A stretch of DNA of 30,661 nt from a virus. Position 1 is the first letter of the stretch; every line of letters begins with the position of its first letter. Shown piece after piece: positions 3,043 to 30,047 of the stretch. The notes under the pieces were generated by a model. That model saw only the letters and a program-made list of their open reading frames with translations. It made no database searches and was not told the DNA's origin. A program made the translations under genes and the position numbers. The stretch is taken from positions 1-30,661 of the IMG/VR virus record IMGVR_UViG_3300028925_002892; one strand, 5' to 3'.

Positions 3043-3070
3043 AAAAGAGGGGATTTAATTCCCCTCTTTT
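3043..3070 (+). terminator. Rho-independent terminator after major capsid gene
   Basis: AAAAGAGGGGA (3043-3053) pairs perfectly with TCCCCTCTTTT (3060-3070) around a six-base TTTAAT loop, and the stem ends in a T run. It lies 12 bases after the capsid stop. It would reduce transcription into the head-completion and tail genes, giving a capsid-rich step. Confidence 0.92.
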
Positions 3071-3085
3071 AAACAAAGGATTTTT

Positions 3086-3250
3086 ATGATTAATGAAAAA
3101 ATTAAATTACAAAAAGGCGATAAAATAATTGAACGCAATAAAATTGATTGGGAAAAAAATCAAAATATGTGGAAATTTAGAGGTTATACTTTAGCTGAAG
3201 ATAAACCAAAACTTTCATTAGTTACAAAAAAAAAGAAAAAAGATGATTAA
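3086..3250 (+). CDS. Small charged protein (54 aa)
   Basis: This is a 54-residue lysine-rich protein with no cysteines, ending in a run of lysines and Asp-Asp. AAAGGA lies six bases before the ATG, and the stop overlaps the start of the next tiny gene by eight bases (ATGATTAA). I do not recognise a family. It is the first gene after the capsid terminator and immediately precedes head-completion genes, so a small virion-associated or accessory role is possible. Support is the ribosome site, clean coupling and same-strand context; length alone would not be enough. Confidence 0.6.
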   Translation: MINEKIKLQKGDKIIERNKIDWEKNQNMWKFRGYTLAEDKPKLSLVTKKKKKDD

Positions 3251-3323
3251 TCCTTGTACTTGTAAATCTTGTGGCTGTGATGTATGTATTTGTAATGATG
3301 AATGTGAATCTTGTGGAGCATAA
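3243..3323 (+). CDS. Tiny cysteine-rich peptide (26 aa, 8 Cys)
   Basis: Reading from ATG3243 gives only 26 residues, eight of them cysteine, at positions 5, 7, 10, 12, 15, 17, 21 and 24. The C-x-C and C-x2-C spacing is like metallothioneins or small zinc/iron-sulfur knuckles. The start overlaps the stop of the preceding gene by eight bases and its stop falls three bases before the next start, so it fits the operon exactly. No family is recognised. It could bind metal as a monomer or oligomer; a disulfide-rich virion peptide is another option. Chance ORFs this Cys-dense in such AT-rich DNA are unlikely, since TGT/TGC codons recur regularly. Confidence 0.55.
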   Translation: MINPCTCKSCGCDVCICNDECESCGA

Positions 3324-3326
3324 ATA

Positions 3327-3794
3327 ATGGCAACTTCTCAATTTAGTGTAGCTAATAGTGATTTACAGACCATACAGCCAGATATTCTTGGTTTTGGTAT
3401 AACTACATTTGAATCACACTTACAACTCGCAGAAGATGATGTTTTAAGACAAATTCGTGCTGAATGGTGGGAAAGATACAGGCATACAGTAAGATATAAA
3501 GATATTACAAAAGTAACTTCTATAGAAATGACTGATAGTAAACTTACTAATGCTCAATGGAAAAGTTCAGTAGTTTATATGGCTATGTGGAAATATATAT
3601 ATCCTCAATTAACTAAATGGAATGAAATAGGAAATTTAGATTCATTTCAAATACAAATAGATTTTTACAAAGATAGATATACTGAAGAATTTCAACAAGT
3701 TTTACGAGATGGTGTTGAGTATGATGAAGATGGTGGTGGAACTATTGCCGCATCTGAAAAAGAATCTATTCACAGTTTACGCCTTACTAGGTAA
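3327..3794 (+). CDS. Head-tail connector / head completion protein
   Basis: The 155-residue protein is helical, with a tryptophan-rich centre (EWWERYR about 46-52 and repeated Trp/Tyr to about 100) and an acidic Gly-rich tail. Size, helical type and place directly after the capsid genes and before the tail completion gene match adaptor proteins of the SPP1 gp15 / HK97 gp6 kind, which extend the portal ring after packaging. No motif proves this. It begins three bases after the cysteine-rich peptide and its TAA overlaps the next ATG (TAATG), indicating translational coupling. Confidence 0.6.
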   Translation: MATSQFSVANSDLQTIQPDILGFGITTFESHLQLAEDDVLRQIRAEWWERYRHTVRYKDITKVTSIEMTDSKLTNAQWKSSVVYMAMWKYIYPQLTKWNEIGNLDSFQIQIDFYKDRYTEEFQQVLRDGVEYDEDGGGTIAASEKESIHSLRLTR

Positions 3795-4248: not shown

Positions 4249-4692
4249 ATGAGTGAACGAGAAGATATAGCAAGTGATATTATTACTAAATTAGATGCTG
4301 TTTCTAGTCCTATTGAATTAAAAAAGATAACGAGAGAGCCATTTGAGGTAGAAGAATTATCAGATGCTCAATTTCCTAGTGCTTATGTTCAAAGCGGAAA
4401 TGAATCTAGAGAGCCATTTGCTATGGGTAGTAATTCATCTGGAAAAACACAAGGTACAATAGATTTTATTATAGTTGGATTTGTTAAAGGTAGCACAACG
4501 AATATAGACACATTACGAAACCAGCTCATAGAAGTTATTGAAGAAACTTTAGATAATGATATAACAAGAAATGGAAATGCTATTGATACACAACTCGTTG
4601 AAGCTGATACAGATGAAGGAATTATTTTTCCTTATGGTGGAGTAAGAATTGTGGTAAGAGTAATATATGAATTTACGAGAGGAACAGCATAA
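4249..4692 (+). CDS. Tail terminator protein
   Basis: This 147-residue protein has the arrangement of tail terminators (lambda gpU / HK97 gp11-like): an N-terminal helix (MSEREDIASDIITKLDAV), a central beta meander and a C-terminal strand with IVVRVIYEF (about 135-143). Such proteins cap the tail tube at its head end and stop polymerisation. It lies after the tail completion gene and one small gene before the tube protein, the standard order. AAGG precedes the ATG. The stop overlaps the next start (TAATG). Confidence 0.65.
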   Translation: MSEREDIASDIITKLDAVSSPIELKKITREPFEVEELSDAQFPSAYVQSGNESREPFAMGSNSSGKTQGTIDFIIVGFVKGSTTNIDTLRNQLIEVIEETLDNDITRNGNAIDTQLVEADTDEGIIFPYGGVRIVVRVIYEFTRGTA

Positions 4693-13186: not shown

Positions 13187-13551
13187 TGGACATTACAATA
13201 AAATTACATAAAGCAATTAAGAATTTAAAATCTACAGCAGAAGTAAGTGTTAGTGGAGATATAGAAACTGAAGCAGACTTTAATAAGATTCAATGGTTAC
13301 AAGCAAATAAAACTTGGTCACTTACAAATCCTCATAGTGAAATAACATGGTCAACTTTAAGTACAGAAATGACAAGACTTCAAACTGAATATGATGGTGT
13401 TGGAGCAGTACAAAGAAATAGAGCAAAACAATATAAACAAATTCAAGACCAATTAGACCAACTATATCATGATATGACTGCTGGAAAACTAAATGCAACT
13501 GGAGAATGGCACAAAGCAATAAAAGCAGTTAAAGATGCCAATCCTAAATGA
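13186..13551 (+). CDS. Fibre-associated small protein (121 aa)
   Basis: This is a 121-residue protein. Its N-terminal part (1-50) is mixed, while the C-terminal half is helical, with RAKQYKQIQDQLDQLYHDM (about 79-97) then W-x-K-A-I-K-A-V-K-D-x-x-P-K. That ending is frequent in phage proteins coded after tail fibres and thought to be virion components or fibre-assembly factors. ATG overlaps the upstream stop; the TGA overlaps the next ATG by four bases. Confidence 0.65.
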   Translation: MDITIKLHKAIKNLKSTAEVSVSGDIETEADFNKIQWLQANKTWSLTNPHSEITWSTLSTEMTRLQTEYDGVGAVQRNRAKQYKQIQDQLDQLYHDMTAGKLNATGEWHKAIKAVKDANPK

Positions 13552-14120
13552 TCTGGAAACCTATTTTAATAGGTTTAATTATTTCAACCTTAATTTTATT
13601 TTTTCTTAACTCCTTAATGAATTCTGTTCAAGCCGCAGAAACAAACACAGTAAGCTCAACTGTAGTAACTGACAAATCTGTTCCAACTGCATCTGCTCCA
13701 AGTGTTGTTGTTAATAATTCTGATGTATGCAAAACAGCTACGAGTGGTGCTGTTCAAACTCAGATATTTGGTATTGCTTCTGGCATTACTATCACAGATG
13801 AAAATTGTGAAATACTCAAATTATCAAGATCATTATATGCTATGGGAATGAAAGTTGCCGCAGTTAGTTTATTATCTACTGATTATAGGGTTTTTGATTC
13901 CATGCTTATGGCTGGAACACCTCCACCAATTAATGGAAAAATAGGATCAGAAGCATTAAAAGAATGGGAATTAAATCCAGATCTTATTCCAGAAGGATCA
14001 AAATATTTTAATAAAATAGAATTAATTAAAACACAGGAGCAAAAACATAATGATATGGAATTGGCAAAATTTCTCATTAGTGCTATGGCTTTGTATATCG
14101 GCTTTCCTATCTTTTTCTAG
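13548..14120 (+). CDS. Membrane/secreted hypothetical protein
   Basis: The 190-residue product has a hydrophobic N-terminus (about 5-22, ending SVQAAE) that may be a cleaved signal peptide or an anchor. Two cysteines (about 61 and 86) might pair outside the cytoplasm, and the last 20 residues (LISAMALYIGFPIFF) form a second hydrophobic segment. I do not recognise a function. It may be inserted in the host membrane late in infection. The last 71 bases also encode the start of the next gene in another frame, an unusually long overlap. Confidence 0.65.
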   Translation: MIWKPILIGLIISTLILFFLNSLMNSVQAAETNTVSSTVVTDKSVPTASAPSVVVNNSDVCKTATSGAVQTQIFGIASGITITDENCEILKLSRSLYAMGMKVAAVSLLSTDYRVFDSMLMAGTPPPINGKIGSEALKEWELNPDLIPEGSKYFNKIELIKTQEQKHNDMELAKFLISAMALYIGFPIFF

Positions 14121-28641: not shown

Positions 28642-30047
28642 TGGCAGACTATACGAGAGAATTTTTAACACACAGACATCAAGATTATGATGAAAGTATG
28701 AAAAATTGGAATTTTCATTTGCGTTCTTATTTAGGCGGTCAAGATTATACCAACGGATATTTTCTTAATAGGTATATTTTAGAATCAGATGAAGAATATT
28801 TAAAGCGACAAAGTTTTACAGCACTAGACAATCATTGCAGAAATGTAGTGCAAGTTTATTCTAGTTTTTTATTTAGAGTTGCACCAACAAGAGATTATGG
28901 GTCATTAACTGGAAACCCACAATTACAATCATTTATTAAAGATGCTGATTTAGATGGAAGAAGTTTTTCTCATATTATTAGAGAAATGCAAATGAACGCA
29001 TCAATCTATGGTAACTGCTGGGCAATAGTAGATAAGCCATCAACACAAGCTAGTTCAATGGCAGAAGAATTAATACAAGATATTAGACCTTATCTTTCAA
29101 TCTATACTCCAGAAAATATTACTAATTGGCAATACGAAAGACAAGCCAACGGAAGATATTTTTTAACCCTTCTCACAGTCATTGAAGATATAAATTCAGA
29201 TAGAGCAATTATAAAAGTTTGGACACCAGAAACTATTTGTACTTATGAAATTAAAGATTTTATGCAAGAATACAAACAATCTAAACCTATTTTATTAGAA
29301 GAAGTACCTAATGCTTTAGGAGAGATACCAGCAGTTAATTTATTTAATCAAAAATCACAAAAGAAAGCTATTGGTATTTCTGATTTATCAGATGTGGCAG
29401 AATTACAACAATCAATTTACAATGACTATTCAGAAATAGAACAATTAATAAGATTATCTAATCACCCTAGCTTAGTTAAAACACCTAATGTAGAAGCCTC
29501 TGCTGGTGCTGGAAGTATTATTGAAATGCCAGAAGATATGGATGCTGCTTTAAAACCTTATATTATTCAGCCAAGTTCTCAGTCATTAGAAAGCATAATG
29601 AAAACTATTCAAATGAAAGTAGATGCTATTAATAGAATTACTCATATGGGTAGTGTTAGAGCAACAGAAAAACAAGTATCAAGTGGGATAGCATTACAAA
29701 CAGAATTTCAATTATTAAATGCAAGACTATCTGAAAAGGCTGATCTATTAGAAAATGCCGAAGAAGGAATATGGACATTTTTTGCTAAATGGCAAAACCA
29801 AACTTTTGATGGCATGATTGATTATCCAGATACTTTTGATTTAAGAGATTATGCAAGTGATTTACAATTCCTACAACAAGCAAAAGCAAGTGGTGTTAAA
29901 TCTGAAACTTTCCAAAAAGAAATAGATAAACAAATTGCTAAAGCAGTTGTAGATGAAGATGAAAAAATTCATTTAATTAATAATGAAATTGATAGTGCAA
30001 GTGCCACTTTAGGTCAATTTGCTACTCCTGTAGAAGAAACTATCTAA
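28641..30047 (+). CDS. Portal protein
   Basis: The 468-residue protein follows the large terminase and overlaps its stop (TAATG), with GGTGGAG just before the ATG; a longer GTG start at 28632 is less likely. It has the helical, Gln/Glu-rich portal composition, the central wing/stem-type segment SDLSDVAELQQSIYNDYSEIEQL (split about 250-275) and a long C-terminal helix set (SGIALQTEFQLLNARL, about 352-367). It forms the dodecameric vertex through which DNA passes and to which the tail attaches. Confidence 0.92.
   Translation: MADYTREFLTHRHQDYDESMKNWNFHLRSYLGGQDYTNGYFLNRYILESDEEYLKRQSFTALDNHCRNVVQVYSSFLFRVAPTRDYGSLTGNPQLQSFIKDADLDGRSFSHIIREMQMNASIYGNCWAIVDKPSTQASSMAEELIQDIRPYLSIYTPENITNWQYERQANGRYFLTLLTVIEDINSDRAIIKVWTPETICTYEIKDFMQEYKQSKPILLEEVPNALGEIPAVNLFNQKSQKKAIGISDLSDVAELQQSIYNDYSEIEQLIRLSNHPSLVKTPNVEASAGAGSIIEMPEDMDAALKPYIIQPSSQSLESIMKTIQMKVDAINRITHMGSVRATEKQVSSGIALQTEFQLLNARLSEKADLLENAEEGIWTFFAKWQNQTFDGMIDYPDTFDLRDYASDLQFLQQAKASGVKSETFQKEIDKQIAKAVVDEDEKIHLINNEIDSASATLGQFATPVEETI

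Follow-up and report, generated by a model that had tools for sequence, protein, structure and literature searches.

A gene of 26 codons in the head module of an uncultured virus belongs to a recurrent and previously unlabelled family of cysteine-rich peptides of 12 to 30 residues, with members in considerably more than 100 sequences of uncultured viruses. With modest confidence, the product is read as a metal-thiolate buffer or carrier that would be metallothionein-like in action. The family has a conserved design, carries the marks of purifying selection on more than its cysteines, and moves among genomic positions; the metal binding, the identity of the metal, and the benefit to the phage are all proposed from these properties of the sequences.

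The peptide gene and its family

The window, the whole stretch of 30,661 nucleotides that was analysed, has a capsid gene at 2189, a tail-completion or neck gene at 3794, and a tail terminator gene at 4249 according to PHROGs, a setting that is a siphovirus-type head and tail module and that agrees with the head operon of the original prediction. The open reading frame (ORF) of interest encodes MINPCTCKSCGCDVCICNDECESCGA, in which eight of 26 residues (31%) are cysteines, at positions 5, 7, 10, 12, 15, 17, 21, and 24. The first 8 bases, from the ATG onwards, are shared with the end of a 54-amino acid ORF (3086-3250), and its stop codon is separated by 3 bases from the ATG of a 155-amino acid ORF (3327-3794); length, cysteine content, overlap, and gap are all as first described. 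The features considered here are as follows.

3043..3070, strand not assigned: strong terminator-like hairpin at the boundary between the capsid gene and the gene block bearing the peptide (2 sites found, 0.2 expected); expression of the capsid may thus be separate from that of the block
3086..3250, plus strand: 54-amino acid ORF with a lysine-rich end, overlapping the peptide start by 8 bases; in most relatives it abuts the 155-amino acid gene directly
3243..3323, plus strand: gene for the 26-amino acid peptide, long form (family A), eight cysteines, from the ORF reading and a profile match at 3246-3320
3285..3323, plus strand: conserved C-terminal core C-x-C-N-D-x-C-E-S-C-G-A-stop, of the type common to 85 distinct peptides
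3327..3794, plus strand: 155-amino acid head gene of unknown function, with homologues in pelagiphages and IMG/VR; the anchor for locating the slot in relatives
13548..14120, plus strand: gene of the second slot, whose relatives have the peptide in either form immediately 5' or with one gene in between, from neighbourhood comparison

Degenerate DNA patterns were scanned against IMG/VR because tblastn, in a search with a three-member alignment, cannot confirm such short peptides. The pattern C-x-C-[NDHY]-D-x-C-x2-C-G-x-stop matched 108 contigs, nearly all encoding a similar peptide, and a second, N-terminal pattern, together with stop and codon variants, gave additional members. The loci retrieved from IMG/VR comprise 85 distinct peptides in 124 distinct contexts and follow the design C-x2-C-...-C-x-C-[DNE]-D-x-C-[DE]-[SNT]-C-G-A-stop, with alanine at the C-terminal end in 80 of the 85. 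Six core cysteines and one further position occupied by cysteine or glycine are invariant in a 30-member alignment, and the near-fixed residues other than cysteine are the aspartate after C-x-C, the [DE][SNT] before the last cysteine, and the GA-stop end. Long forms have six to eight cysteines in 23-30 residues, with spacing that falls into a few classes, and both CPxCG and CxxCG turns are present among family members. The 71 peptides of 30 residues or fewer are all acidic, with net charges from -2 to -6, and have no more than two aromatic residues each and hardly any histidine. The family profile matches the window at 3246-3320 with an E-value of 6e-9, the window peptide itself being one of the 30 rows of that profile.

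Long peptides at three loci (L139, L164, and L178) form the C-terminal end of a 59-63-amino acid protein whose N-terminal part carries more cysteine motifs. Another group of cysteine-rich phage proteins, of about 40-90 residues and with the motif CD(S/A)CxECGCD-x2-C-x-C-x-CH, was also encountered (L228, L246, L252, L253, L255, L262, L283, and others).

The pN/pS ratio of the long form is 0.22 in frame versus 1.95 and 0.88 in the other two frames, values that are biased in that the search pattern fixes the cysteines and some aspartates; at codons left free by the pattern, pN is 0.26 and pS is 0.60, and for the 12-amino acid peptides the values are 0.12 and 0.48. The family is under purifying selection that includes residues other than cysteine. 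Shine-Dalgarno-like motifs lie 5' of 44 of 75 distinct starts, against 24 expected from shuffles, while RNA folding around the ORF is no better than chance (z +0.7 to +1.5). On the family evidence, the ORF is marked as a protein-coding gene whose peptide is presumably translated.

Placement, short form, and distribution

The 155-amino acid anchor gene has homologues with 34-39% identity in the pelagiphages HTVC026P, HTVC202P, HTVC112P, and HTVC111P and in phage DSL-LC06, and 545 relatives in IMG/VR. Most of the best 80 of these 545 have no ORF in the slot before the anchor, and the lysine-rich gene abuts the anchor instead. The long peptides that relatives have in the head slot were identified by position, with three cysteines as the sole threshold: MNTNCPVCGCDKDKCICNDYCDNCGA or a close variant of this 26-amino acid peptide lies in exactly that position at three loci (L010, L011, and L020). 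Others have a 12-amino acid ORF in the head slot: MCNCNGNCICGK in L001, MCNCNGNCVCGK in L002, and MCHCNGNCVCGK in L015. In L004-L008 the 12-amino acid form has lost one cysteine and retains three (MCHCDGNCLFGK), and is perhaps a decaying copy.

The consensus of the short form is MCxCNGxC[IV]CGK, 12 residues with four cysteines, found at 35 loci (some of them one contig fetched twice) with eight distinct DNA sequences. At 31 of the 35 it directly precedes a relative of the anchor gene (58-95% identity); at L220, L221, and L224 it precedes a relative of the window gene at 13548, and at L213 a small membrane-protein gene resembling one found 3' of the long form elsewhere. The records bearing the 12-amino acid form do not have the long form. 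L001, which has the short form, shares 87% identity with the window along 4.1 kb that include the slot, close enough to indicate that the two forms replace each other between close relatives. Long and short forms are treated as one family mainly because they share slots, the sequences alone being too short for proof. The original prediction would fail if the ORF lost its cysteines in close relatives or showed no purifying selection, and the outcome is mixed: the 26-amino acid form is lost in the closest relatives, but the four-cysteine form of 12 residues stands there instead, and purifying selection acts on the family overall.

Across the family, the neighbours of the peptide gene cluster into 26 upstream and 14 downstream protein groups, which include tail-fibre-like genes and small coiled-coil membrane proteins related to the "fibrinogen-like coiled coil" proteins of pelagiphages. 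One peptide-bearing lineage encodes a 2OG-Fe(II) oxygenase that has a relative in HTVC023P, and in one lineage of 23 contigs the ORF precedes convergent genes on the opposite strand. Three relatives of the window (G003, G004, and G005) have no peptide in the head slot and carry the gene about 13-14 kb downstream, after a tail-fibre-like gene, a distance that for G003 presumes a circular map. In two of them, G003 and G005, a gene for a small membrane protein and a relative of the window gene at 13548 come next. The window itself has no peptide at this second slot (13548..14120). The peptide gene also occurs in unrelated phages and beside lysis-type genes, and record G020 carries two distinct members, one towards each end (L315, 18-101, and L316, 1646-1729), that would lie close together on a circular genome. 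The gene is accessory and relocates between genomes.

A scan of 84,980 cellular genomes with the pattern gave seven matches, of which one is a true member: its contig is short and comes from a marine metagenome assembly (TMED10), and both the peptide and the adjoining 3' bases agree with phage contigs. As far as that pattern reaches, the family looks confined to viruses. No true member was found among GenBank phages by tblastn, and none by profile search in 14 annotated phage records, mostly isolated pelagiphages. An unannotated ORF of HTVC023P, near record position 29104 (L296, near 2019) and 3' of purM, encodes CFECHHDCHCDKICPKCSCYTC, with a similar C-x-C-x3-C-x2-C core; it was not accepted as a member, and is a possible distant relative in an isolated phage. 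The family spans several phage groups, at least three of them pelagiphage-related; the marine label derives from the relationship to pelagiphages and from the single named assembly.

Proposed metal-thiolate function and rival readings

The ORF product would be a soluble cytoplasmic mini-protein without a hydrophobic core of its own, which folds when its cysteine thiolates coordinate one or two soft metal ions; the metal would most likely be Zn(II), possibly Cu(I) or Fe(II). The long form would combine two turns, one of CPxCG type and one of CxxCGA at the C-terminal end, with a C-x-C in the middle, and the 12-amino acid C-x-C-N-G-x-C-x-C would retain a single four-thiolate site on a short hairpin. 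Synthesized with the late genes through coupled translation, the peptide would buffer or carry metal (or thiol) in trans in the course of infection, and action in trans would leave its genomic position free. The observed freedom of movement suggests just such action and argues against a head-specific role. Negative charge, few aromatic residues, and almost no histidine leave ligands without a basic nucleic acid-binding face or a hydrophobic core, and a variable cysteine number (six to eight, or four in the short form) with few spacing classes is as expected of metal clusters. The original prediction's comparison with metallothionein stands as the best reading, strengthened by cysteine conservation and purifying selection, although no prokaryotic metallothionein profile matches. 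Against it, the near-fixed D, [DE][SN], and GA-stop exceed in specificity what a pure chelator would require, so that a binding partner is conceivable, and a 26-amino acid peptide buffers little metal unless it is abundantly made.

A less probable alternative is that the peptide folds on zinc and binds one host or phage protein, such as a polymerase, a protease, or a lysis protein, altering its activity, with the metal being structural only. The same conserved residues (D after C-x-C, [DE][SNT], and GA-stop) would suit such an adaptor, and zinc ribbons and rubredoxins, which typically have CPxCG turns, give weak profile matches confined to those turns. However, the 12-amino acid form, which has no N-terminal turn, occupies the same slots, there is scant surface for a specific interface, and the residues between the cysteines are variable.

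A component of the virion or a disulfide cross-linker of the head, a role raised by the original prediction, is improbable. In the window and a few relatives the gene does lie between capsid and neck genes, but most relatives sharing the head genes are without it, others carry it by tail or lysis-type genes or are unrelated phages, and when tested, the association with head genes was not constant. Since placement varies in this way, with the head slot empty in most relatives and the gene about 13-14 kb away in others, the gene is not tied to the head operon and cross-linking of the capsid is unlikely. The host cytoplasm is a reducing environment, which counts against a disulfide cross-linker.

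Slightly less probable again is a cysteine-responsive leader, of the kind described for mycobacterial polycysteine leader ORFs, in which ribosomes stalling at cysteine codons would tune the next gene. The cysteine codons are dense and coupling to the gene that follows is often tight, but purifying selection reaches residues other than cysteine, RNA structure is within chance, and the ORF precedes many unrelated genes; where the next genes are convergent on the other strand, as in the lineage of 23 contigs, it cannot lead anything. A chance or non-coding ORF is the least credible reading: the ORF is very short and is unannotated in all libraries searched, but 85 distinct peptides keep the design despite numerous synonymous changes, a pattern confined to the reading frame, and ORFs of 20-41 amino acids with at least 25% cysteine number one in the window and none in 100 first-order Markov reshufflings of it, so composition is ruled out as the cause. 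The non-coding reading is refuted for the family, while the window copy alone could still be untranslated.

A broader proposal can be put forward tentatively: these would be virus-confined, ultra-short metalloproteins of 12 and 23-30 amino acids, encoded by single-gene cassettes that move among the late-gene slots of abundant marine phages, and 12 codons would suffice for a functional metal site able to replace a longer one. Members of the family are shorter than gene callers usually accept, and none of the profile libraries searched has a match, but several phage groups carry them. Should the peptide bind metal, phages of probably streamlined, sulphur- and metal-limited hosts spend cysteine on it late in infection, and infection would be connected with the metal pools of the cell; the 12-amino acid form would rank with the smallest metal sites encoded by a gene, and it offers chemistry an easy target.

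Comparison with known cysteine-rich families

Pfam, PHROGs, and NCBIfam gave only noise and no fitting family, and a search confined to the open literature found no published description of this one. An AlphaFold model of the peptide is unstructured and of low confidence (pLDDT 63), and speaks neither for nor against a metal-held fold.

Mycobacterial polycysteine leader ORFs are also short, cysteine-rich, and upstream of a coupled gene, but the phage ORF differs from them in having other conserved residues, no RNA fold, and unrelated neighbours. The zinc ribbon or rubredoxin fold has two CPxCG-type knuckles at the ends of beta-hairpins in a domain of about 40-50 amino acids. Rubredoxin, LysW, and Nop10 zinc knuckles share the CPxCG turn with the phage peptide, in which both turn types are present; the best matches to them are about 8-10 residues each, covering one turn, with a best E-value of 0.007 and no domain-level similarity, and the peptide is too short for such a domain. 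The restriction alleviation protein Lar (PF14354) is a small phage protein of the zinc-ribbon type with a CPxCG turn, but only one family member matches it, at an E-value of 5.5, which is noise.

The bacterial metallothioneins SmtA and BmtA are small, soluble, and very cysteine-rich, with C-x-C and C-x2-C motifs. The phage peptide is likewise small and very cysteine-rich, and its clusters of C-x-C and C-x2-C (six to eight cysteines in 23-30 amino acids) are of the metallothionein type. However, the model of the prokaryotic metallothionein family (PF02069, Metallothio_Pro) has 51 positions, while the phage form is half that length, almost free of histidine, and has a near-fixed GA end; neither the window nor the family members match PF02069 up to an E-value of 10. 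The peptide falls outside the known prokaryotic metallothionein family tested and, if the reading is right, works like a metallothionein nonetheless.
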